IMG/VR virus record: IMGVR_UViG_3300037189_005566
Coordinates: 1-38,624 of that record
Reading direction: 5' to 3' (one strand)
DNA: 38,624 bases
Source: a virus
Shown here: one piece after another, positions 208 through 17,274 of the stretch
Layout: each line of letters begins with the position of its first letter
Position numbering within the stretch: the stretch's first letter is position 1
Program-made: the position numbers and the translations under genes
Notes under the pieces: generated by a model
What the model was told of the DNA's origin: nothing
Seen by the model: only the letters and a program-made list of their open reading frames with translations
Databases searched by the model: none

Positions 208-1622
208 TAGGCGAGACCTCCACCAGACAAACCGCCACCAGCCTGCGAAGGCACGCTAGTGCCGCCAGCCTTGATGTCTTGGATACGTTGAGCCGGTCCA
301 GCCGAGAACGCATTGCCGATGCTGTTGGCGATGCCTTGGATGGCACGCTGCTGGGCGATTGCCACGAACTGCTGGAGCAGGCCAGCCAGAGCTTGGCGAG
401 CGTTGGCCGCGCCGTTGACGATGCTGAAGAAAGCACCACCGATGGCCGTGCCGACGTCTTGGCCCAAGGACTTGAGCTGGTTCAGTTGCTCAGTCAGCTT
501 GCGGATCTCATCGTCGCGCCGCTTTGCGATGACGTTGAAGATCTGCTCTTGGCTCACGACGCTGTAGTCTGACGCGAGGTTGGGCGGGTTCAACCGATCG
601 CGCAGCGTCGCAATCTGGCCAGGCTGCAACACGCCGAAGCCGCCGAAGCCGTAGCCACCGTTCGAGACTCCGGCTTGCCCGGCCTGCACAACGCCTTGCA
701 CGGGCGCCGTTGGGTTAGGCGAGAAGACCGCCTGGTTGCGGAAGATCTGCGCAACGCGAAGGATGATCTCGCGCGCGGCTTCATTGGTTAGGCCAACGTC
801 TACGAGCTGCGACCTGGTCGTTTGCAGCCCTTGAACCGTGACCTCCTGTCGCTGTTGCCGGACGCCACGAGGCCCAGCAAGATCGGTGAGCTCCGATTGA
901 GACAGCCCAGTGAGCGCAGTGAGGTCGGCAAAGCTCTGGAAGCCTTGTTGGCCAGCCAGGCCGCTGGCGACTTCCGCCAACCGGCGAGCGCGCAGTGTCT
1001 CCTGCTCCTTCTGGTCGATCTGGAATCCGATGCGCTGCAAGTCGGCGTTGCGCTGGATCTGGAGCGCGAGATCGACGCTCGCTTGGCGCAGCTCCTGCTG
1101 GAGCTTGATCTGCTCGCGCAGCTTCTCGTTGGCGTCTTCCGTCTCGCCGCCGAACAGCGTCATCGCCGTGGCGATCGCTGAGATCACGCCAGCGGCGGCA
1201 AGCAGCGGGTTGGCGCGCAGCAGTCCGACCAGGCCGCTGAAGCTTCCTTCTGCCTTGCTGCTGATCTGCGCAACGTCCACCAGCGACTGCGCGAACACGC
1301 TGGCCACGGTGCCTGCGCTACTGAAGCCGGATCCCAGGTTGCGCACTTCCTCGCCGAGCAGGCGGACGCGCTGGTTGATCTGCGTGACCTCGCCTAGCGC
1401 GGCCACGCCGTCCTGGAACTTCTTGGTCTTGGCTGCTGCTGCTTCGGTCGAAGTGCCGACCGTGCGGGCCGCTGCATCGACTTGGCGGCCCATGCCATCG
1501 ACGGCGCGGCCTGCGGCCTCTGCCGACTTGCTGACGCCGTCGAGGTCGGTCTTGGCCCCTTGAGTCTCCTGCCGCATCTGCTGGGCATTCAGCTCAAGCT
1601 TCAGTGCTGCGATGGTCGTCAT
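207..1622 (-). CDS. Tail tape measure protein
   Basis: This 471-aa protein has the features of a short tape measure protein. A long Ala/Gln/Glu/Arg-rich helical N-terminal half (about residues 1-125) is followed by a hydrophobic segment around 'LLAAAGVISAIATAMTL' (about 140-155), more helix, and a Gly/Ser-rich tail. Family members set tail length and are ejected during infection; 471 residues would give a short tail if the usual helix scaling holds. It follows the frameshifted tail chaperones, whose long product ends 29 bp inside this gene, and precedes the DUF2460 tip gene. That is the standard siphovirus order. AAGGA lies about 8 nt before the ATG. No lysozyme or peptidase domain is obvious. 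Confidence 0.85.
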   Translation of the reverse strand: MTTIAALKLELNAQQMRQETQGAKTDLDGVSKSAEAAGRAVDGMGRQVDAAARTVGTSTEAAAAKTKKFQDGVAALGEVTQINQRVRLLGEEVRNLGSGFSSAGTVASVFAQSLVDVAQISSKAEGSFSGLVGLLRANPLLAAAGVISAIATAMTLFGGETEDANEKLREQIKLQQELRQASVDLALQIQRNADLQRIGFQIDQKEQETLRARRLAEVASGLAGQQGFQSFADLTALTGLSQSELTDLAGPRGVRQQRQEVTVQGLQTTRSQLVDVGLTNEAAREIILRVAQIFRNQAVFSPNPTAPVQGVVQAGQAGVSNGGYGFGGFGVLQPGQIATLRDRLNPPNLASDYSVVSQEQIFNVIAKRRDDEIRKLTEQLNQLKSLGQDVGTAIGGAFFSIVNGAANARQALAGLLQQFVAIAQQRAIQGIANSIGNAFSAGPAQRIQDIKAGGTSVPSQAGGGLSGGGLA

Positions 1623-2381
1623 TGCTGCGTTCCTTCAGTGCGTGACGCGCCACGCCGTCCAAGTGATGCACCACCGCCCAGAACGTGCGCCACCGCCATC
1701 GCGGAATGCCATGCAACCGACACCAGGCAAGCACGGAGTCGGGCGAGATCGGGTCCGAAGACCATCCCACGCTTGCGCTCTGCTTGAGGTCGATGAAGGC
1801 GTCCCATAGGTCGGTGTATTTCGGGTCGAGTTCTGCGGCCTGCATGGCCGGGTGGTCTGGTTCGGGCTTGCCTCTTTGCCTGCGCCACTCGGCAAGTCCC
1901 CGGATGTATTCTCGCTCCTCCTGCGGGATCAGCGCGAGCCGCAGGAGGCTGCTCAGTTTCCCTTTGCCGCTTCCTCCTGCTCGATGCGGTAGCTGCGGAT
2001 GATGCCTGCCGTGTCCTCAATGAAGTGACGCAGCGGCCACAGCTCCTCGTCTTCGAGCAGCTCGACCGCCTTATCCACCGAGTAGGGGATCGCCGCGCCT
2101 GCGTCATCCTGGAGCCCGTCCCATCCGACGAGGATCGACTCAGCAAGCGCGCGCGTGACGAGCTTTGACCAGGCCGTCGCAGCCTCTTCGCCACCGGCGC
2201 GAAGCTTCTCTGCGTTGGCCAGTTGCAGCCTTGCCAGCACGGCCCGGTGCTGCGGGTTGTCGCGCTCGGCGACTCGCACGCAGAACTGTCCGTTGGGCGC
2301 GTCGATGCGCTGGCCGGTCTGGTATTCCCACCAGACACCGGCCTTGCTCGCCTTGTTCCGTCGAATGGTCTTCAGGTTCAT
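1594..2381 (-). CDS. Tail assembly chaperone, -1 frameshift fusion (lambda gpGT-like)
   Basis: This is the long product made when ribosomes slip -1 at the heptamer GGGAAAC (1962-1956). Residues 1-142 are shared with the short form; then reading continues at CTG (1956-1954) in the -1 frame to a stop at 1596-1594, giving about 262 aa. The extension is Trp/Arg-rich and acidic ('REYIRGLAEWRRQ', 'DPKYTDLWDAFIDLK') and contains an internal ATG at 1845 in the same frame. In lambda and most siphoviruses the two genes before the tape measure are joined this way, and the fusion chaperones the tape measure during tail-tube assembly. The position, length and complete frameshift signal all fit. The extension alone, started at 1845, would be 83 aa. 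Confidence 0.85.
1917..1962 (-). promoter_or_regulatory. Programmed -1 ribosomal frameshift signal
   Basis: Reading on the minus strand, the zero frame is GCA AAG GGA AAC TGA. Two overlapping X-XXY-YYZ slippery heptamers are present, A-AAG-GGA and G-GGA-AAC, the second ending directly before the zero-frame stop. After a 7-nt spacer (1955-1949) comes a perfect 10-bp stem, CCTCCTGCGG (1948-1939) paired with CCGCAGGAGG (1926-1917), with a 12-nt loop. Slippery site, spacer and stem all match known -1 frameshift signals, and the -1 frame is open for 120 further codons. Confidence 0.9.
1953..2381 (-). CDS. Tail assembly chaperone, short form (lambda gpG-like)
   Basis: This 142-aa protein is encoded immediately after the tail tube gene (ATGA overlap at 2378-2381) and before the tape measure, the fixed position of siphovirus tail assembly chaperones. 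It begins MNLKTIRRNK and has a mixed helical body ending in EQEEAAKGN. Its last codons, AAG GGA AAC TGA, form the slippery site through which a fraction of ribosomes make the longer fusion. By analogy with lambda gpG, it should be the abundant non-structural partner that coats the tape measure during tail assembly. No family is certain from sequence alone; the call rests on position and the frameshift. Confidence 0.82.
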   Translation of the reverse strand: MNLKTIRRNKASKAGVWWEYQTGQRIDAPNGQFCVRVAERDNPQHRAVLARLQLANAEKLRAGGEEAATAWSKLVTRALAESILVGWDGLQDDAGAAIPYSVDKAVELLEDEELWPLRHFIEDTAGIIRSYRIEQEEAAKGN

Positions 2382-3553
2382 GCGAAGAAGCTAATGCGGA
2401 TGCCGATCCCTTCGCTTGCATCTTCCTCGAACTGGAACGGCATCGACGCAATCACGTCGCGGTCGCTGCCATTCAGCGTCGGGTTGCCGTAGCGCACGCG
2501 CGGGATGGACAGCGTGAGGATGCTGCCAGTGCTGTTCTTCATCACGACATACATCGAAGAGGCCGTGCCGAGCAGCGCCTTGTTGAACTCGGCGATGTCA
2601 TCGAAGTAGGCCGTGAACTGGCCAGTGCCGCGGAAGTCGCCTGCGCTGATGCTGTCGGCCACGTAGTCGCCGACGTTACTGCGCGCCTGGCTGTTGTTGG
2701 CCCAGTTAAAGCTGACCGACTGGACGCCGTATTCGGCACCAGCGACGTTGACCCACGGGACGTTGTTGGTCGCATCGACCACTTCGCCAGTAGACGCCGC
2801 GTTGAACGTGCCGCTCGCTTGCGTGGTGCGAAGACCAGAGAGCGCCGTCGCAATCTGATCAGAGCCAACACCGACCGTGTTGAACGTGCCGGTGATGATG
2901 CCCTTGTTCGTCAGCGAGAAGCTGCACGCGTCGATCGTCTCCTTGTCGAAGAGCTCGAAGCGGTTGTCGCTCACGCTGCCAGGCGACTGGAAGACGCGCA
3001 GCATGGCGAAGTTCTTCTGCGTGCTGCCGTTCTTGATCGTGACACCACGGCGCACCGTGAACGGGCCCGTAGGACCGACTGGCCTCGTCAGGTCGATCGA
3101 CATCGTCGCGCCAGGCGTCGAGGTCACGCGCGCGTAGTACTTCACCGTCGGCGAGGCCGTGTCGTAGATCTCGATGACGTCGCCGCGCTCGAAGCCGGTC
3201 GTAGTGCCGGTGAGCACCGTCGTGGCCCACGTGAAGCTGCCCGTGCTCTGGGCCGCCGTAGACGCCGCGCTATAGATCGACGCCTTCAGCATCAACCACC
3301 AGTTCTCTGACGCCGAGGTCGGGATCTGCGTCTCAAAGGGGATCGTCAGAGCCGACTGCGGGCCGACGAGCTTGAGCCCTGCCGGGTTGCGGTTGTTGCG
3401 GATGAGCTGCGACTCAACCGTCTGGTTGGCCGGACCACCGCTGACGCCAGGCTTCTGGACGTTGATGTATTGCCAAGTGCTGTTAGCGGGAACGTCACCA
3501 GTGAGCGACGCGCGCTCGTGGACTGCTAGCTTGCTCGTGCTGATGGAGGCCAT
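2378..3553 (-). CDS. Major tail (tube) protein
   Basis: This 391-aa beta-rich protein lies between the tail terminator and the tail chaperones, where the tail tube gene belongs. Its N-terminus (MASISTSKLAVHERASLTG) and segments such as 'ETQIPTSASENWWLMLKAS' and 'DSISAGDFRGTGQFTAYFDD' resemble the large siphovirus tail-tube family found in Proteobacteria phages, with a central strand-rich insertion (about residues 110-200). Tube subunits polymerise as hexameric rings around the tape measure. The 391-aa length is long for a bare tube domain and suggests one or more surface domains. It ends with an ATGA overlap into the chaperone gene. Confidence 0.8.
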   Translation of the reverse strand: MASISTSKLAVHERASLTGDVPANSTWQYINVQKPGVSGGPANQTVESQLIRNNRNPAGLKLVGPQSALTIPFETQIPTSASENWWLMLKASIYSAASTAAQSTGSFTWATTVLTGTTTGFERGDVIEIYDTASPTVKYYARVTSTPGATMSIDLTRPVGPTGPFTVRRGVTIKNGSTQKNFAMLRVFQSPGSVSDNRFELFDKETIDACSFSLTNKGIITGTFNTVGVGSDQIATALSGLRTTQASGTFNAASTGEVVDATNNVPWVNVAGAEYGVQSVSFNWANNSQARSNVGDYVADSISAGDFRGTGQFTAYFDDIAEFNKALLGTASSMYVVMKNSTGSILTLSIPRVRYGNPTLNGSDRDVIASMPFQFEEDASEGIGIRISFFA

Positions 3554-3554
3554 G

Positions 3555-3983
3555 TCAGACCTGCTCCTCGATTCGGAAAGGGATGGTCACGACGAGAAGC
3601 CAGAGGCCATCGTCGAGCGTCGGCGGAGCCGACACGTAGGGTGGGTCGAAGTGGATCGGCGGCGGACCGGCGAGCGTCACTCCGCGGAAGGCGTCAACGA
3701 TTGCGTCAACGAGTTCGAGCTGCGTGCCGTCACCGGCGCCGACTGGCTCGAAGAGCTGGATGAGCGCCACGCCCGTCGTGCGGAAGTGCCCTTGGCCCAG
3801 GCCGCCGACGGTGAGCTGCTCTTGGAGCCCCATGCGCAGCGACAGGCGGCACCAGCGACCAGACGAAGGGATCGTCTGGTTGGGCGCGTTGTCGTGCACC
3901 GTGGTCAGCGTCTCGGGCGTCGTGATCTGCGCCGCGAAGCGGTCACGGATCAGGCCAGCGGCCGTGGCGATGAGACTAGCCAC
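3555..3983 (-). CDS. Tail terminator-like protein (DUF4128/gpU-like)
   Basis: This 142-aa protein resembles the DUF4128 group of phage tail-completion proteins. An N-terminal helix with 'LIRDRFAAQI' is followed by strands carrying 'WCRLSLRMGLQEQLTVGG' and the segment 'RTTGVALIQLFEPVGAGDG', and it ends in a strand with 'LLVVTIPFRIEEQ'. Proteins of this type cap the tail tube and join it to the neck, like lambda gpU. It is the gene directly before the tail tube, the expected place, and it overlaps the upstream gp10-like gene by 8 bp. Confidence 0.75.
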   Translation of the reverse strand: MASLIATAAGLIRDRFAAQITTPETLTTVHDNAPNQTIPSSGRWCRLSLRMGLQEQLTVGGLGQGHFRTTGVALIQLFEPVGAGDGTQLELVDAIVDAFRGVTLAGPPPIHFDPPYVSAPPTLDDGLWLLVVTIPFRIEEQV

Positions 3984-4467
3984 CTTCGGCCTCCAGCGTC
4001 CTGATCTCCGCTTCGGTCTTGCTCTTGACCTCAGCGATCGACAGTTCGATGAAGCCAGCGGGCGCTTGCCTCGACCAGCCCGAGTTCAGGCGGTCGCCGT
4101 ATGGGAGTCCGTTGACGATGTAGCTCACGCTGAAAGGAGCTAGTTTACCAAGCTCCGCGTTTGCTGCTTCGGTCTGCCTCGAGGACGGATCTTCGCCATA
4201 CTTGCGCGCATCGTTCGTCTTTGGTGCAACCGTCGCACTGCCAGAGATGTTGGCTTGCCAGAAGCTGCGGAACTGGCCGCCGACGTAGCCCTTGGGCGCT
4301 GTGTTCTTCCAGCTCGGTGGGAAGCCGACAGGCGACTTCTTGATCAGCGAGTAGAGCAGGTCCAGCGTGATCTTGGCGTGCACCTGGACCACCGCTTCTG
4401 GCACCAGGTCCGACATGAACTTGTCGAGCTGGAACTGGAACGAGCGCGCGTTGTCGGAGTTGGTCAC
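3976..4467 (-). CDS. Neck/tail-completion protein (HK97 gp10-like)
   Basis: This 163-aa protein resembles HK97 gp10-type head-tail joining proteins. Typical features are a basic helical N-terminus, a 'KSPVGFPPSWKNTAP...GGQFRSFWQANI' region and, near the C-terminus, 'YGDRLNSGWSRQAPAGFI', a motif family members carry as a 'YA..lE.G.S.QAP.G' block. It lies between the small connector (4464-4832) and the tail terminator, matching the usual neck gene order. It starts within the 4-bp ATGA overlap with the preceding gene. Confidence 0.72.
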   Translation of the reverse strand: MTNSDNARSFQFQLDKFMSDLVPEAVVQVHAKITLDLLYSLIKKSPVGFPPSWKNTAPKGYVGGQFRSFWQANISGSATVAPKTNDARKYGEDPSSRQTEAANAELGKLAPFSVSYIVNGLPYGDRLNSGWSRQAPAGFIELSIAEVKSKTEAEIRTLEAEGG

Positions 4468-4832
4468 GGCGCGCCCTCCTGCAACGTGAGCTCGTAGGCC
4501 AGCAGCGTCGTGCCGATCTCCAGCCGGCCGACCACCGTCACCGTGTAGATCTTCGATCCGACCGTGACCTTTGCACCAACCTGCAACGTGAACGTGAGGC
4601 CGCTGGCAGGAATCAGCAACTGCGCCGATCCTCGTGGCTGCGAGTCGGCCGTGACGCCGCGCGTCTGCGAGTAGAGCGGCGACGCCAGCACGCTGTGGTC
4701 AGTCGCCGTCCTCGTGGTCTTGCCGGTGGTCGTGCTGTAGGTGTCCGAGTAGGTCGTGACGGTGACGGTGCGCCCGACCTCAGCGGTCGCCGAGTAGACG
4801 TCGGCCAGGATCTGCGCAGCGTCTACTGTCAT
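4464..4832 (-). CDS. Head-closure/neck connector protein
   Basis: This 122-aa, Thr/Val-rich beta-strand protein sits between the adaptor and the gp10-like neck protein. In siphoviruses this place belongs to the head-closure (stopper) protein, and the small beta-barrel composition ('TVTVTTYSDTYSTTTGKTTR', then 'LLIPASGLTFTLQVGAKVTV') fits that. The function is inferred mainly from gene order. It overlaps both neighbours by 4 bp (ATGA), implying translational coupling with the adaptor and gp10-like proteins. Confidence 0.6.
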   Translation of the reverse strand: MTVDAAQILADVYSATAEVGRTVTVTTYSDTYSTTTGKTTRTATDHSVLASPLYSQTRGVTADSQPRGSAQLLIPASGLTFTLQVGAKVTVGSKIYTVTVVGRLEIGTTLLAYELTLQEGAP

Positions 4833-7237
4833 CGGTCGGCCCAGATCGAGTTGTCGATGAGGCCCGCGACCTTGAACAGCCGGTCCACAATCACGAACTT
4901 CTTGGCCGTGTCCTTGCCGCCGCCGTAGGTCTTGTTGATCGAGATCGGGCCGACCGTGATCGAGTCCGCAACGACGTTGGAGCCCGCGGCCGTGTCGGCC
5001 AGGAACTGCGTCGAGTCCTCAAGGTAACGGCGCGCGATCTCGGCCGTGGCGCGTTGCAGAGCCACCGGCACGCCTTCGATCTCGTAGCCCTGCCGGTCGT
5101 ATGCCAGCGAGCGCGGGAACTCCAGCGCCTGCGTGTTGACCTGGCGGTAGCCAACAAAGCGGTCGCCGTAGGTCTGGTTGATCCAGAACGTGGCGCGCAT
5201 CAGAGCACGCTCGCGCTGGATCTTGTCCGCCGCGTCCCACGCCGTATTGCCGCCTTGGTTCTGGAAGTAGGTCGTGCAGAACAGCTCGGTGCAGTAGCTG
5301 TTGGCGGTCGAACTGCCCGTGCCCGTCTCGACCACCAGAGCGCTCTCGTATGCGCCAACGTCGAGCTGCTCGGTGATGTTGCGCCAGAGTTGGAAGGCGC
5401 GGTATTCGAGCAGCGTGATGCCTGCTGCGTCGTAGTGCGCCGTATCGCCGACGATCTTCGTGGCGTCGTCCATCTGCACCGTGCGCATGTAGCGGTCTTC
5501 CGCTGCGCACAGTTGGATGGCCGAGTTGATGGTCGCCGCGAACGGCCACGGCGTCGTGGTGATCAGCGGCTGCACCCACGGGATCGTGGACTCGGTGCCT
5601 GCGTAGAGGCCCGCGTCCTTGATCGCGCCGCGCACCTGGGCCTTGAACGTGGTCAGGTTGCGGTAGTAGCGCTCGGCTTGATCGAGGAACGAGCCGTCTC
5701 CTTCGCCTTGCACGAAAAACACGCCCAGGCACTCCAGCGTGTTGCTCTCGCGCTGCGCCGCGAGCTTGGCCGCGTCGAGCGTGTCGATTAGTCGCTGGAA
5801 CAGGTTGTTGCGGTCGCCTGCGCTCCAGCTTGTGTGCTGGTGCGGGTCAAACCAACCGATAGAGGCGACCGGGATGACCGCGTCGAGGTAGAGGTCTTGC
5901 TGCGCGATGGTCGTGCCGTCCACCGCGAGATTGACCACATAGATGATGTCGCCGACTTGCTCCTGCAAACGGTTGGCAAGGCCCGTGTGGTATGCAGCTC
6001 GTGCGCTCAACGCGAACGGCGAGCCCGCGCCGTAGAGATAGCTCTCGCCGACAAACGGCTGGTAGAACTGCGGCGTGGCGATGTGGTTCGGATAGTTAAA
6101 TCCCGGCGGGTATGGGTTGGCCTTCTGCAACCGCCGCACAAAACTGCTACCCGAAAGTGCCACGTAGCTCGCGCCGATAGTGAACGTGGTCGAGGTCTTA
6201 GCAATGACCGGCCATGTGCCTTGGTAAGCAGCCTGACCGGTGATGTTGACAAACGAACCGACAGTGATTGCGTCGCCGTGCGCTGCGGTGAGTTGCGTAA
6301 GACCGACGCCAGCAGACGCCGCAGCAGTGATAGCCAAGTTGGCCGTGACTGTGCGCCCTTCTATGGGCGACCACGGCAGGAAGTAAGCCCACTTCTCGAA
6401 AGGAACGTCAACCGCGCCAACGGGCGGCGGCTCAATCACGAAGGTGTCGTTATTCGACGGGTTGTTTGGCAGAGCTTCGCTAAACGTGATCTTGACCGTT
6501 GGCGGTGCTCCGGCAACGTCGTTGGCAATGCTTCCGTCCAACGTGATGCTGCTCACGTAGCGCACAAGTCCGACATTGCCTGCGCTTGCACTTGCAGTGC
6601 AGCGCACGCGCATGCCAGCCAACGACCCGTTCCAACTGCCGTCGGTTCCAAAATCATCGCCCAAGCGTGGCTCGATGCAGATGTAACTACCCGAAGCACT
6701 GTTGACGCCTGCTCGGATCGGATAGGTGATCTCCTCGCCAATAACGGTCGGCGGATCAAACGCAGGAACAACAAGGATCTGGTCAGCCAAGCCAGCCGAC
6801 ACGCCGCCGCCCCAGAACGCAACCGTATGCGTGGTTCCAGTGCGTTCGCGCGTGATTGTGCGGCCCGTCGGATCGAACTGCCACTTGAGCGAAGTCGTCA
6901 GTGCCGTCTGGCTGCTAGTCGTGACCGATGGGTCGATTGTCGTGACGCGCGCCGTGCCTGGATACGTCAGGTAAGCGATGCCCGTTGCGCACGGGTTGTA
7001 GAACGTCAGGTAGCGGATGCTGTCAACGGCTGCGCCCTTGAGCGAGCACGTCGGGAACTCAGGCCACGTGCCTGGGATCGTGTAGGTGTCATTGTAGGCA
7101 CCTTGCGCGTCGGCTGGTGACAGAGCGCCGTCGAAGTCGACAGCCATCTGCGAATGCAAGACGCTCCACGCCGCGTAGTCCGCTTTCGTGCCGCCGTTGG
7201 ACTGGCCGATGGTCAGGATGAACTTGCGAACTGCCAC
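4829..7237 (-). CDS. SGNH-hydrolase/esterase domain fused to head-tail adaptor
   Basis: This 802-aa protein appears to join two unrelated functions. Residues 1 to about 625 carry the blocks of an SGNH (GDSL-like) carbohydrate esterase: GQSN at 11-14 with the expected nucleophile Ser13, QGE at 510-512, and a D-x-x-H pair at Asp598/His601 in 'VGDTAHYDAAG'. Sialate O-acetylesterases have the same GQSN, QGE and DxxH order. Roughly 350 residues of beta-rich sequence are inserted between the first and second blocks. Residues from about 630 to the end ('ALVVETGTGSSTANSY', 'DRFVGYRQVNTQALEFPRS', 'RATAEIARRYLED') match the DnaT-like/gp6-type head-tail adaptor family. The start is GTG at 7237 with AGGAG 6 nt upstream. 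There is no internal stop or clear restart at the domain junction, so the adaptor should be made only as part of the fusion. Confidence 0.82.
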   Translation of the reverse strand: MAVRKFILTIGQSNGGTKADYAAWSVLHSQMAVDFDGALSPADAQGAYNDTYTIPGTWPEFPTCSLKGAAVDSIRYLTFYNPCATGIAYLTYPGTARVTTIDPSVTTSSQTALTTSLKWQFDPTGRTITRERTGTTHTVAFWGGGVSAGLADQILVVPAFDPPTVIGEEITYPIRAGVNSASGSYICIEPRLGDDFGTDGSWNGSLAGMRVRCTASASAGNVGLVRYVSSITLDGSIANDVAGAPPTVKITFSEALPNNPSNNDTFVIEPPPVGAVDVPFEKWAYFLPWSPIEGRTVTANLAITAAASAGVGLTQLTAAHGDAITVGSFVNITGQAAYQGTWPVIAKTSTTFTIGASYVALSGSSFVRRLQKANPYPPGFNYPNHIATPQFYQPFVGESYLYGAGSPFALSARAAYHTGLANRLQEQVGDIIYVVNLAVDGTTIAQQDLYLDAVIPVASIGWFDPHQHTSWSAGDRNNLFQRLIDTLDAAKLAAQRESNTLECLGVFFVQGEGDGSFLDQAERYYRNLTTFKAQVRGAIKDAGLYAGTESTIPWVQPLITTTPWPFAATINSAIQLCAAEDRYMRTVQMDDATKIVGDTAHYDAAGITLLEYRAFQLWRNITEQLDVGAYESALVVETGTGSSTANSYCTELFCTTYFQNQGGNTAWDAADKIQRERALMRATFWINQTYGDRFVGYRQVNTQALEFPRSLAYDRQGYEIEGVPVALQRATAEIARRYLEDSTQFLADTAAGSNVVADSITVGPISINKTYGGGKDTAKKFVIVDRLFKVAGLIDNSIWADR

Positions 7238-7257
7238 GTGGTGCTCCTGGTGTAAGT

Positions 7258-7342: not shown

Positions 7343-7798
7343 TCATGGGATCGGGACGATCCAGGCAGAATAGGTCACGGCAGGCGTCGTGCCGCTGCTG
7401 ACGCAGGTCAAACGGACGAACTGCGTCGCAATGATGCTGCTCGAATCCGTCGCGCTGGTGACTGCGACGTTGTCGCAGTAGATCACCGTGCGACCCAAAG
7501 CCGTCGTATCAACAGGCTGGAGGTTGACAGTCGAGTCGCCGAGGCGCTTCTCTGCCAACACGTAGGCCGTGCTGAAGGCCGAAGCCGTGGCACCCTGTAC
7601 CTGGAAGCGATACAGCTCGTCCCCCGAAGCGACGTCCATACCGCTCCAGTCGATGACCACCGCGAAGCGCTGCCAGTTGTTGGCCGCGCCGCCAAGGTCA
7701 AACGCCGTGCCGTTGGTCGTAGTCGCGGTCGAGACCGCGGTTGCACTAGCGAGCTGAAGCGCTCCATCGAGCGTCAGCGAGTAGCATTGAAAAGCCAT
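7343..7798 (-). CDS. Probable capsid decoration/structural protein
   Basis: This 151-aa beta-rich protein follows the major capsid gene after 18 bp and has one of the strongest ribosome-binding sites in the genome (AAGGAGG 8 nt before the ATG), implying high expression. Its sequence is low in charge and rich in Ala/Ser/Thr/Val ('MAFQCYSLTLDGALQLAS', 'NNWQRFAVVIDWSGMDVAS', C-terminal 'TYSAWIVPIP'). Position and expression signal point to a decoration or other abundant virion protein. No specific family is recognised. It shares general style, not clear homology, with the protein at 17271-17648. Confidence 0.6.
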   Translation of the reverse strand: MAFQCYSLTLDGALQLASATAVSTATTTNGTAFDLGGAANNWQRFAVVIDWSGMDVASGDELYRFQVQGATASAFSTAYVLAEKRLGDSTVNLQPVDTTALGRTVIYCDNVAVTSATDSSSIIATQFVRLTCVSSGTTPAVTYSAWIVPIP

Positions 7799-7816: not shown

Positions 7817-8785
7817 TCAGGCGATGGCGACTAGGTCGCTGATGTCGTAGAGGCGGGTCACGCAACGCGGGTGAATGTCTGCGATGTTCGCATACATCTC
7901 GACGCGCGTGCGACGGACCGCCTTGGCGTTCTGTTCGCCCAGGTCACGCACCTGGACACCGCCGACCGTTGGCATGCACAGACCCATGTCAGTGAGCGAC
8001 AAGCAGTAGATCGACGTGCTGCTGTCGTTGTTCTCGTTGAAGCCGATCTGCTCCAGGCCGCCGACCGTGCCGAGCACGTCCGCGTCGAGGATTGGCAGGC
8101 CGTTGTAGGTCGTGACGAGACGGCCGTATTCATCCTTAACCATCTGCACCGACGAGCTGCCGCGCAGGAAGGCTTGGATGTTGACGCGCATCTTCTTGGC
8201 CATCAGCAGGTGCGTCGGGTTTTCCGTCTGCTGGATCGCCTCGTCGAGCGAGCGCATCGAAAGCGCACCGCCGCCAGAGTTCTGGAGGATCTGGCCAGCG
8301 TTCTCGCCGCCGTCCACGACTGCCGTCGAGCCGAAGCCGCCACCGTAACGGACCTGGAGACCGTCGAATCCGTTGGCGTCACCGGTCGAACCACCGCCAC
8401 CAGCGACCGATCCCTTGATGATCTGGAAGCTGATCGTCTGCGCGATGAGCGCGGCCTTCGCCTGCTCTTGGATCGCGCGGTGGGCCGGGCCGTGAGCCTG
8501 GACCAAGAACTCGTCAACGTCGAGGTCGCCGCCGATGATCTTCATCGCAACGGTGCGGGTCTCAACGGTGCCAGCCGATTCCGAGTAGGAACCGTTCACG
8601 GCACGGAAGCCTGCCGAGCCGAGCGAAGCTTGGCGCGTCCAGGCGAAAGCGCTGCCTTGGATTGGCAGCATGGGCATAGCGGCGAGCAGCGGCGAGCTGT
8701 CGGCAAACGTCTTCAGAACGCCTGCCTTCTTGAACTCACCGTTTGCTTCCGCAGTCAGAGCGGACTGGAGAAGAGTAACGGCCAT
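7817..8785 (-). CDS. Major capsid protein (HK97-fold)
   Basis: This 322-aa protein has the features of a podo/sipho-type major capsid protein without a long N-terminal delta domain: 'LTAEANGEFKKAGVLKTFADSSPLL', a Gly-rich loop 'VAGGGGSTGDANGFDGLQ' (about residues 125-145), and the late segment 'YNGLPILDADVLG' followed by 'CLSLTDMGLCMPTVGGVQVRD'. Those last strings are typical of capsid proteins that accompany DUF4055-type portals. It follows the scaffold gene and has a GAGGAAA ribosome-binding site before the ATG. Several hundred copies per capsid would be expected. Confidence 0.88.
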   Translation of the reverse strand: MAVTLLQSALTAEANGEFKKAGVLKTFADSSPLLAAMPMLPIQGSAFAWTRQASLGSAGFRAVNGSYSESAGTVETRTVAMKIIGGDLDVDEFLVQAHGPAHRAIQEQAKAALIAQTISFQIIKGSVAGGGGSTGDANGFDGLQVRYGGGFGSTAVVDGGENAGQILQNSGGGALSMRSLDEAIQQTENPTHLLMAKKMRVNIQAFLRGSSSVQMVKDEYGRLVTTYNGLPILDADVLGTVGGLEQIGFNENNDSSTSIYCLSLTDMGLCMPTVGGVQVRDLGEQNAKAVRRTRVEMYANIADIHPRCVTRLYDISDLVAIA

Positions 8786-9630: not shown

Positions 9631-10068
9631 TCAAGATCGCCCAAGCTGCGCTTGGACCTTGTGCCAGTAGCCAACGGTCGCCTGCTTGCGATGGCCGCGC
9701 GGGCCGCCGTTGTGGACGCGGGATAGCCGTTCCCAGTCCTTGTCCGCCACAGCCTGCGGGCAATAGCGCAGCATGTAAGCGACCACCACGCGTTCCGCGT
9801 AGACGCGGTCGGTCACGTCCTGGTAGACCGCGTCGCGCAGCGCCGGGCAGACCTGGCAGGCGTCCGACCAGTAGATCTCCCAGATCTGGAAGCGGCCAAT
9901 CGCCTTGCCGCCGTCGCCTACGGCCTGGTCATCGGCCTGGCTTTCGACCATGGCCACGGCGTCGAGCCACGGGCGCAGCTCGCGGCGCGCAGCGTCAACG
10001 TCGCGCAGGCGGATCTGGGCGGACAGGACAGAGCAGAGGAGCAGGACCAACGAGAGAGAGCGGATCAT
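9631..10068 (-). CDS. Lytic transglycosylase with N-terminal signal sequence
   Basis: This 145-aa protein (start at the ATG at 10068) begins with a hydrophobic segment, 'SLSLVLLLCSVLSA', that is either a cleavable Sec signal or a signal-anchor. The rest resembles a small transglycosylase/lysozyme: 'AMVESQADD' with candidate catalytic Glu42, 'AIGRFQIWEIYWSDACQ' corresponding to the family's G.[FM]QI block, and 'RVHNGGPRG' near the C-terminus. It should cleave peptidoglycan. Because it sits in the head module between MuF and scaffold, it could be a virion enzyme used at entry, but it is also the only candidate endolysin in the window. Confidence 0.72.
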   Translation of the reverse strand: MIRSLSLVLLLCSVLSAQIRLRDVDAARRELRPWLDAVAMVESQADDQAVGDGGKAIGRFQIWEIYWSDACQVCPALRDAVYQDVTDRVYAERVVVAYMLRYCPQAVADKDWERLSRVHNGGPRGHRKQATVGYWHKVQAQLGRS

Positions 10069-10197
10069 GCCCAAGCTATCGGCACTTCCGCTGCGCGAGT
10101 TGAGCGGCGATTCCTTCGGCGGCGGACGGCGGCGTCGAGAATCCTTCGCGCTTACTCGAGCACGACCACAAGCGGTCGAGGCCGAACCGGACCGCGC

Positions 10198-14981: not shown

Positions 14982-15388
14982 GCATTCCAGGCACCGTCGC
15001 GTTCATCGAGCGCGGCGTGCGTAACGGGTTGGCAGAACATCTCGCGGTCGTGCGCGAACGCCTCGAACGCAGAGACGGCGACAGTGCGAGCGGACTCGGC
15101 AAGAGCCAGCAGTTCCTCGCGGCGCTTGAGCGTGCATGCCTCGGCCTCGGCCTGCTTGCGACAGGCGCGCTCCAGCACGTAGCACCAGCCCGCACGGTCC
15201 AGGGTCTCGTCAAGGATCTCGCGGACGATCGTGTCGATCGGCAGATCGAACGATGCGTTGCCGTATTCGAGCTCGCCGACGGCAAGCCGTTTGGCCACGC
15301 CGTCGAGGAACAACGCCGACGCTTTGTGGTGGCGGACGCTGCGGGTCAGTTGCAGCATCCAGGCATCACGGTCGATGGACTCGGTCAC
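14978..15388 (-). CDS. Hypothetical protein before terminase
   Basis: This 136-aa, mainly helical protein is assigned a GTG start at 15388, which makes a GTGA overlap with the stop of the 629-aa protein; the open frame extends further upstream only over that gene. It includes 'DTIVREILDETLDRAGWCYV' and a charged helix 'ACTLKRREELLALAESARTV'. No family is recognised. Its fixed place before the small terminase suggests a late, possibly packaging-related role. Confidence 0.65.
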   Translation of the reverse strand: MTESIDRDAWMLQLTRSVRHHKASALFLDGVAKRLAVGELEYGNASFDLPIDTIVREILDETLDRAGWCYVLERACRKQAEAEACTLKRREELLALAESARTVAVSAFEAFAHDREMFCQPVTHAALDERDGAWNA

Positions 15389-17274
15389 AGAGCCCTCCAC
15401 CGTGCGTCGTTGATGCGCTGCGCAGGCGGGAACGAAGTCAACACGAAGTGCGCCTGCTGGTTGATCTCGGAGATCATCACGGCCGACGCCATCGACCACG
15501 ACTGGCAGGCAGGCGAGACGTAGATGAACGAGGTCCAGCCCTCGCCCGCCGAGTTAACCGAGGTCGGCCAGGCCCCAGTGCCGAGCACGTCGCCTTCCAT
15601 CCACCGCACCGCGTATGCGTGCCTGCGGGTCGAGAGGTCGAAGCACTGCGTCACAACCGTCTGCGCAAGCCTCATGGCGCTGTTGATCATCTCGCCGTCG
15701 CGCAGTTGCTTACCGAGCGCGAGCAGGCCGATGGCCGCGATGGTTTCCTGCCACGATTGCCAGCCGATGACCGGCTGACCGTTGGCGTCAGACCACCCAT
15801 ACTTCGCCTGCTCGCGGCCGCCGATGGTGCGGATCTCGCGGTCGGGCGGCAGCGTCGAGAGCGGGCTGTTGACGATCGCCCGCTGCGCGCACGTGCGTGC
15901 GACCTGCGTGGCGTCCGTGAATCCAAGCCAGATCTGGTTCGCCCGAGTAAGCGCCATGCGCCCGACGGATCGAGGCGACGGCACCATGGGCTGCTGGTAG
16001 TAGACGTCCAGCTTGTCCAGCTCGATGTGGTCGAGGATGAGCTGTTCGAGCGCGGGGTCGCGCGTCAACGCGTAGGTCGCGTGTAGGAAGTTGTCGCTGC
16101 GGTGCTGGTCATCGGCCGCCGTCCACAGCGTGGTCGATGGAGAAGGCATCCAGCCGATCTGGTTGACGCCAGGCCAGCCCAGGCGGTCTTCGACGCCGTA
16201 GGCCAGGTCCACGCGCTGGTTGTAGATCGTGGCCTTGGGATGCAGCTCGGCGCGCATTGGGGCACCGCCTGGCTCCCTGTTGCCCGTCGGGCGCAGCGCG
16301 AAGGACTGGCACTGCCACAGCGCGTCATGGATCTCCCACGGATCGCCGGTCGTGACGGCCAGGTCGGACGCGCAGCCGAAGTCGGGTTGGTCGCCCGTCG
16401 TTCCGGTCTCGCGCGGTTGGCAACGCGGGCGCATGTCGAGCATGGAGCCGCGGCCAAAGTTGTATTGCTGCCATTGCGTCTCGCGGACCTGCGGCAGATC
16501 GGGCGTTGCCTCGACGATCTTGCCAAGCGCCATCCACTTGTCGGCCCATCCTATGTAGAGCGCGGACAGCGGCGCGTCTCGGCGAGCGACGTCATCGAAC
16601 GGCAGCAGCACGCCGCGGGACTCCCAGCGCGCAGCTCGGTGAGCTCGGCCTGCCGGGCGGATGACACCTCGCCACGTCGGCAAGTTGGGCAACTGCTGCG
16701 CCTGCTCTTGGCCGTTGCGCCGGGCGAAGTCGAAGTGGATGCGAGCGCGCGAGGTCATCGTTACCTCGGGCAGATCGACCGCTTGCGCCTGGCCGTTGTT
16801 CTCCGTCGTGCCGTAGACCACCTGCGTTGTGAACTCGACCGACGCCATGCCCGACGAAACCGTCAGCCAGCAATCGACGGTCACCTTCTCGGCGGCCCAG
16901 TGGTCGCGGATGCGCCAGACGATCGCGGCCGGCGAGGAGCGCACAAGGTCGAGGCTCGACGTTGTCGGCCCGACGCCTGCGAGCTTGAACTGCGGCAGGA
17001 TGGCCAGCGCGTTGTCGGCGAGGATCGGATGCCAAGCGAATGCATCCAGCTTGCGCGGCTCGTCCGACCAGTAGCACTTGATCGTGCTCGAGGCAGGCAC
17101 CGACGCGAGCACGCGGACTCCGTGCGGCTCGCGGACCCATGGCATGATGCTCTGCTCGGTGACGAGCCAGCCTGCCTCGGCCTCAGGCATATCCACAGCG
17201 GGCAGGCCGATGAAGACCCACCCATGCTGCGGCAATGCCGAGATGTTCTGGATGCGGACGGGCGCGTTGGTCAT
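15385..17274 (-). CDS. Large late protein, possibly carbohydrate-active (RIFT barrel plus alpha-toroid)
   Basis: This 629-aa protein opens with a beta-rich domain (about residues 1-220): 'VRIQNISALPQHGWVFIGLP', then 'LVTEQS', and a strand-rich segment with 'VTVDCWLTVSS'. This is reminiscent of the RIFT-barrel start of exo-rhamnogalacturonan-lyase-like (PcRGLX/YetA) proteins. The second half is helical with repeated aromatic and His/Asn motifs ('DQHRSDNFLHATYALTRD', 'LTRANQIWLGFTDATQVA', 'GWQSWQETIAAIGLLALGKQ'), as in alpha/alpha-toroid sugar-active enzymes. The assignment is tentative. It lies between a beta-rich virion-like protein (17271-17648) and the terminase operon, so a virion polysaccharide-degrading or structural protein is likely. 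Catalytic residues cannot be named. Confidence 0.5.
   Translation of the reverse strand: MTNAPVRIQNISALPQHGWVFIGLPAVDMPEAEAGWLVTEQSIMPWVREPHGVRVLASVPASSTIKCYWSDEPRKLDAFAWHPILADNALAILPQFKLAGVGPTTSSLDLVRSSPAAIVWRIRDHWAAEKVTVDCWLTVSSGMASVEFTTQVVYGTTENNGQAQAVDLPEVTMTSRARIHFDFARRNGQEQAQQLPNLPTWRGVIRPAGRAHRAARWESRGVLLPFDDVARRDAPLSALYIGWADKWMALGKIVEATPDLPQVRETQWQQYNFGRGSMLDMRPRCQPRETGTTGDQPDFGCASDLAVTTGDPWEIHDALWQCQSFALRPTGNREPGGAPMRAELHPKATIYNQRVDLAYGVEDRLGWPGVNQIGWMPSPSTTLWTAADDQHRSDNFLHATYALTRDPALEQLILDHIELDKLDVYYQQPMVPSPRSVGRMALTRANQIWLGFTDATQVARTCAQRAIVNSPLSTLPPDREIRTIGGREQAKYGWSDANGQPVIGWQSWQETIAAIGLLALGKQLRDGEMINSAMRLAQTVVTQCFDLSTRRHAYAVRWMEGDVLGTGAWPTSVNSAGEGWTSFIYVSPACQSWSMASAVMISEINQQAHFVLTSFPPAQRINDARWRAL

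Follow-up and report, generated by a model that had tools for sequence, protein, structure and literature searches.

A putative SGNH esterase fused to the head-tail adaptor of a metagenomic siphovirus, and its relatives on other neck-ring proteins

Introduction

Enzymes of the phage virion are usually sought at the tail tip, in spikes or in the tape measure. The stretch of DNA analysed here (the window), a whole IMG/VR record of 38,624 bases from a siphovirus with its structural genes on the minus strand, raises the question of whether such an enzyme may also be built into the neck. A preliminary description had placed in the adaptor position an 802-aa open reading frame joining an SGNH carbohydrate esterase to a DnaT-like/gp6 head-tail adaptor. 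Here we ask whether this fusion is genuine, how widely it occurs and what it may do. Loci compared with the window carry the prefix L.

Results

A gp6-type adaptor at the end of one long frame

The 802-aa frame proved to be present, on the minus strand, which the description had not given (Table 1). It contains zero internal stops, opens with a GTG at 7237, and its stop overlaps the head-closure gene by 4 nt. Both the gene start and its GTGGCAGTTCGC context are identical in the window and in L002-L004. At the joint between the two halves, neither an ATG nor a GTG preceded by a clear ribosome-binding site was found that could serve as an internal start for a free adaptor, and the sole GTG near it codes for a residue within a conserved LVVE stretch. 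Esterase and adaptor models thus match a single uninterrupted frame, as had been proposed.

The C-terminal half is a gp6-type adaptor, with a match to PF20557 (DnaT_2) at residues 633-789 (E 2e-25, profile positions 2-151 of 168) and to PHROG 477, 'head-tail adaptor Ad1' (E 1e-30); this part of the preliminary description stands, 'DnaT' being a legacy name only. No second Ad1 adaptor is recognisable within the 38.6-kb record. The frame occupies the adaptor position because its neighbours are the major capsid protein (MCP), the phrog_427 protein, head closure, Neck1, tail terminator and tail tube, so that synteny, with the frame between capsid and head-closure genes, supports the neck position given in the description. 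Ad1/gp6-type adaptors such as YuA gp63 and R7M gp29 (PHROG 477, DnaT_2) correspond to the C-terminal 170 residues of the fusion and share with the window the gene order MCP, adaptor, head closure, neck, tail terminator, but they are normally ~170 aa proteins standing alone, unlike the 802-aa fusion. In MW202657, the closest isolate-type relative by terminase, a stand-alone adaptor-sized gene lies in the fusion's place.

Table 1 Features of the fusion gene and its neighbourhood in the window
Feature	Position	Strand	Basis
SGNH esterase + Ad1 head-tail adaptor fusion, 802 aa	4829-7237	minus	GTG start, single ORF
AGGAG ribosome-binding site	7244-7248	minus	6 nt before GTG; kept in L002-L004
GQSN block, catalytic Ser13 (residues 11-14)	7196-7207	minus	sequence, alignment
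Beta-rich insert in SGNH core (residues 51-395)	6053-7087	minus	alignment with shorter L015; AlphaFold2 secondary structure
Two-version segment (residues ~297-370)	6128-6349	minus	relatives' alignment
C-terminal SGNH core part (residues 396-625)	5363-6052	minus	Pfam SASA; Foldseek; dN/dS
QGE block (residues 510-512)	5702-5710	minus	sequence, alignment
DxxH block, Asp598/His601, within 'GDTAHY'	5435-5446	minus	sequence, alignment
Ad1 (gp6-type, DnaT_2) adaptor domain (residues 630-802)	4832-5350	minus	PF20557, phrog_477
Major capsid protein	7817-8785	minus	phrog_212, E 1e-55
151-aa protein after MCP, possible decoration protein	7343-7798	minus	phrog_427
Head closure Hc1	4464-4832	minus	phrog_161, E 1e-5
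Neck1 (Ne1) / tail completion	3976-4467	minus	phrog_169, E 3e-26
Tail terminator (Tc1)	3555-3983	minus	phrog_179, E 9e-18
Tail tube	2378-3553		profile match

Elsewhere in the window, the tail module is GTA-like (DUF2460, a phiJL001 Gp84-type hub and Rcc01698_C), and there were no tRNA or Rfam matches. Between the genes for the tube and the tape measure, two overlapping frames (1953-2381 and 1619-2338; together 1619-2381, minus strand) resemble a tail-assembly-chaperone pair that uses a programmed frameshift, and L002 shows a similar layout. Between the MuF-like and scaffold genes, 9631-10074 (minus strand) encodes a 147-aa product whose start resembles a signal peptide and which contains a Destabilase (i-type lysozyme) domain (E 8e-9); L002 has one too.

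An SGNH core split by a large insert

The Pfam SASA model matches residues 469-607 (E 3.6e-7). The SGNH core is split, with the GQSN block at the extreme N-terminus, a beta-rich insert of ~345 aa, and the remainder, holding a Gly441 block together with the QGE and D598xxH601 motifs, at residues 396-625. AlphaFold2, given 41 sequences from the window and the compared loci, produced a model with a mean pLDDT of 78 and a short linker of low confidence at residues 626-631 (pLDDT < 50). When compared with the PDB by Foldseek, the model matched 2apj, 1zmb, 3pt5 (NanS) and 7kmm at E 1e-6 to 1e-3 and also SIAE, a set comprising Arabidopsis At4g34215, NanS, an acetylxylan esterase, XAC1771 and sialate esterases. 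Among viral models, the matches were two long proteins without a name, whose alignments cover most of the fusion's length, several DnaT-like adaptors that stand alone, and fibres bearing an esterase. The SGNH hydrolase reading is therefore upheld by the SASA match, the three motifs and the predicted fold, where the description had allowed for a fold lacking an SGNH core. A chance motif match was ruled out by the two independent domain models and the fold search. A sequence search of the PDB with the single fusion protein returned nothing meaningful, and a profile touching connector chain 8ck1_E at E 0.011 was not relied on.

Known SASA/SGNH esterases (NanS, CE6/CE20-like acetylxylan esterases, SIAE) share the GQSN, QGE and DxxH blocks and the fold, and differ from the window protein in that its core is interrupted by the 345-aa beta insert and fused to an adaptor. 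The triad residues Ser13, Asp598 and His601 are invariant across all full-length Ad1-type members. Within the insert, segment 297-370 exists in one version in the window, L005 and L006 and in a second in L002-L004 and L007, and is absent from L015. Such allelic variation is typical of proteins in contact with the host, and we infer a resemblance between this segment and a small tail-fibre beta module.

The fusion is maintained in independent metagenomes

The fusion recurs at 78-90% identity in five independent contigs from separate metagenomes, one of them truncated at its 5' end, and at about 47-56% identity in L102 and L015. Against the close relatives L002-L004 and L006, every part of the fusion ORF has a dN/dS of 0.09-0.45 (Nei-Gojobori), with the lowest values, 0.10-0.15, in the C-terminal esterase core; against L102 the ratios are 0.88 for the adaptor and 0.52 for the esterase core, at a divergence too great for interpretation. 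Judged by the close comparisons, the ORF is under purifying selection.

These data bear directly on whether the fusion could be a chimeric assembly or a missed frameshift, which the description had named as a possible source of error. Close relatives show neither a separate-gene version nor a frameshift, the genes adjoining the fusion are syntenic among them, and the intact ORF with dN/dS < 1 in all parts occurs at 46-90% identity in several independent metagenomes; an artefact is thereby ruled out, and we regard its probability as negligible. All fusion relatives are metagenomic: a tblastn search of 50,697 phage records with residues 1-621 gave no match to an isolated phage, and two scans of genome contigs yielded no confirmed prophage or host copy.

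One esterase family on several kinds of adaptor

When IMG/VR was scanned with profiles of the esterase half, 48 contigs besides the window were recovered, five of which are truncated or broken. Wherever the 3' end of a family ORF is intact, the esterase is followed by a C-terminal extension. Seven are Ad1 domains, further instances of the domain pair for which the description had recommended a metagenomic search; 31 are of the T7-gp11/tail-tubular-A type, 3 of the lambda-gpW type and 2 unassigned. The gp11 assignment comes directly from PHROG for L014 and L016 (phrog_394/9239, E 9e-37 and 2e-40) and from BLAST clustering or a custom HMM for the others, and the 31 contigs do not amount to 31 independent events because many are near-copies. 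In L016 the next gene encodes the nozzle (phrog_376, E 8e-99). In L103-L105 the C-terminal part is a gpW-type adaptor of 75 aa (phrog_2545, E 3e-8; phrog_118, E 4e-5), and the gene is flanked by a GpA terminase and a lambda-family portal, which is the gpW position. The two unassigned C-terminal domains, in L007 and L137, also lie in the adaptor position, adjoining the Neck1 gene or one gene away. That of L007 has no relatives, gave no HMM match to Mu gp36 and yielded a poor single-sequence AlphaFold2 model (pLDDT 42); that of L137 gave no match to Ad1 by hhalign, and occurs alone in L144, where the gene starts exactly where the L137 esterase ends.

The esterase is N-terminal in all fusions. 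A maximum-likelihood tree of its core requires four changes of partner type, an approximate count in that truncated L140 was scored as gp11, and the non-Ad1 esterase of L007, whose placement is independent of L140, falls among the Ad1 members (97/95 support), which shows that the esterase has switched partner. As far as the sequence profiles go, one esterase family is found N-terminally fused to at least three kinds of neck-ring protein, 'different' here meaning unlinked by the profiles used, since the Ad1, gp11-type and gpW-type families may share distant fold ancestry. This supports display at the neck and suggests that phages use the neck to present surface-active enzymes.

The same breadth bears on two other explanations. 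The enzyme might be released by proteolysis, or might work in the lysate, where removing O-acetylated glycan from debris would keep progeny from being trapped; such an action requires no neck position, and the poorly predicted linker at 626-631 could be a cleavage site. A soluble enzyme, however, would not need fusion to three adaptor types, and no protease site was identified, so that we hold this explanation to be very improbable. Alternatively, the N-terminal part might serve chiefly as a structural collar, lending stability to the portal vertex, with the SGNH fold reused as a scaffold. There is a precedent in roseophage R4C, whose dodecameric adaptor has an N-terminal Ig-like domain of ~106 aa thought to contact the capsid (PMC10276861); like the window protein it bears an extra N-terminal domain, and unlike it this domain is Ig-like and not an enzyme. 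The large and variable beta-rich insert would suit this role too. Yet the catalytic residues are conserved, the module is common to unrelated portals and capsids, and related Ad1 phages assemble without the N-terminal part, 79 of 80 other Ad1 adaptors having no N-terminal extension of more than 20 aa; a chiefly structural collar accordingly seems to us improbable.

The lone exception among the 80 (L077, 5710-6432) is an Ad1 adaptor with a small N-terminal Ig-like domain. Large proteins also occur just before stand-alone adaptors, in the same spot as the fused esterase: a 1154-aa protein with PKD/Ig-like domains in Alteromonas phage R7M (L010, 2541-6005), and proteins of 345 aa and 757 aa in Vibrio phage ALK (L009, 4570-7884). 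A 629-aa protein of the window (15385-17274, minus strand), which adjoins the terminase genes and has no Pfam or PHROG match, aligns along its length at 47% identity with a protein of 647 aa encoded close to the terminase of L104, itself a lambda-portal phage with an esterase-adaptor; the 629-aa protein is possibly co-travelling cargo.

Catalysis versus binding

The window and most of its relatives retain the triad. In one gp11-type podovirus clade (9 loci: L107, L109, L110, L113, L120, L121, L122, L125 and L141), Ser13 is replaced by Asn (GQNN/GQNQ), and L107 and L109 additionally lose the His, as does L110, which is identical to L109 in the aligned core. These genes are still under purifying selection (dN/dS 0.12-0.14), which indicates that the domain can be useful without turnover, and some members probably only bind glycans.

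It is thus worth asking whether the SGNH domain of the window is itself a lectin-like glycan binder displayed at the neck, with residual or absent catalysis, that serves reversible adsorption in the manner of the carbohydrate-binding modules of neck passage structures. Besides the constrained serine-less clade, this would agree with the neck passage structures of groups F/G of 936 phages, which end in a carbohydrate-esterase-like carbohydrate-binding module, and with the carbohydrate-esterase-like domain of phage DEV gp53, for which no hydrolase activity was detected. Against it, the window group and most other members retain Ser13, Asp598, His601 and QGE, and in comparisons with close relatives constraint is strongest in the catalytic half. 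We therefore judge binding alone unlikely for the window protein, though the strongest of the alternatives to an enzyme. Our reading of the alignments is that most family members would be esterases and a minority glycan binders, the Ser-to-Asn clade being candidate natural pseudo-esterases.

Discussion

We consider it fairly probable that the window gene encodes an adaptor-ring protein with an outward N-terminal SGNH esterase, forming a neck collar for glycan contact and probable deacetylation, and that this esterase is a mobile module. Like other gp6-type adaptors, the Ad1 domain would slot in beneath the portal, which would give every virion a neck collar of as many as 12 SGNH domains. In R4C the Ig-like domain is N-terminal and peripheral and a C-terminal hook contacts the portal, so that the adaptor N-terminus would be the end free for cargo. 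There, the SGNH domains would contact host-surface or shed polysaccharide; triad-intact members probably de-esterify it, most likely by deacetylation, which may help the virion to move through glycan or to detach from it. The esterase would have travelled as a mobile module among Ad1, T7-gp11-type and lambda-gpW-type adaptors of otherwise unrelated phages.

Counting against this reading, Ser13 is lost in nine loci, so that retention of the domain need not depend on catalysis, and the C-terminal domains of L007 and L137 are unassigned among adaptor families. The R4C authors deem an adsorption role unlikely for a domain so near the head (PMC10276861), and DEV virions lack detectable LPS hydrolase activity despite a carbohydrate-esterase-like collar domain (PMC10925440).

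The view that adaptors are purely structural, expressed in the preliminary description, needs qualifying, given that accessory domains are known from DEV gp83 and R4C and that tail tubular protein A has been claimed to act as a hydrolase. The gp83 adaptor of Pseudomonas phage DEV has an outward-facing 101-aa lectin insert, and DEV gp53 collar fibres place a carbohydrate-esterase-like domain around the neck (PMC10925440). DEV thus resembles the window in having both an outward accessory domain on the adaptor and esterase-like domains around the neck; it differs in that the latter belong to a fibre of their own, which a 15-fold ring holds in place outside the adaptor chain. Lactococcal neck passage structures bring glycan-binding, pectin-lyase-like or carbohydrate-esterase-like domains to the neck and undergo domain shuffling (PMC6669499; PMC10684548), but on a separate collar protein with a BppU-like N-terminus rather than on the adaptor ring. 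The hydrolase activity claimed for the gp11-type adaptor concerns tail tubular protein A of KP32 and phiYeO3-12 (PMC7060351, PMC5741709), which, unlike the fusion, is a single-domain protein without a dedicated catalytic domain. We found no description of an SGNH domain within an adaptor chain in the literature covered, most subscription journals lying outside it. What is new is thus the esterase in the adaptor chain, a variant of known neck display for which the comparative pattern is unusually strong.

More generally, we incline to the view that the adaptor ring is a general display platform, on which one SGNH module has moved among at least three adaptor families, always N-terminally, in siphovirus-like, podovirus-like and lambda-portal-type phages, giving a neck collar that is catalytic or, where the triad is lost, glycan-binding, and that has no counterpart among described virion enzymes. 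If this holds in several lineages, adaptors would join the host-interaction proteins, and annotating such genes only as 'head-tail adaptor' or 'tail tubular protein A' would miss an enzyme. The adaptor N-terminus would then be a natural site for display in up to 12 copies, and the Ser-to-Asn clade would offer a natural test of catalysis versus binding.
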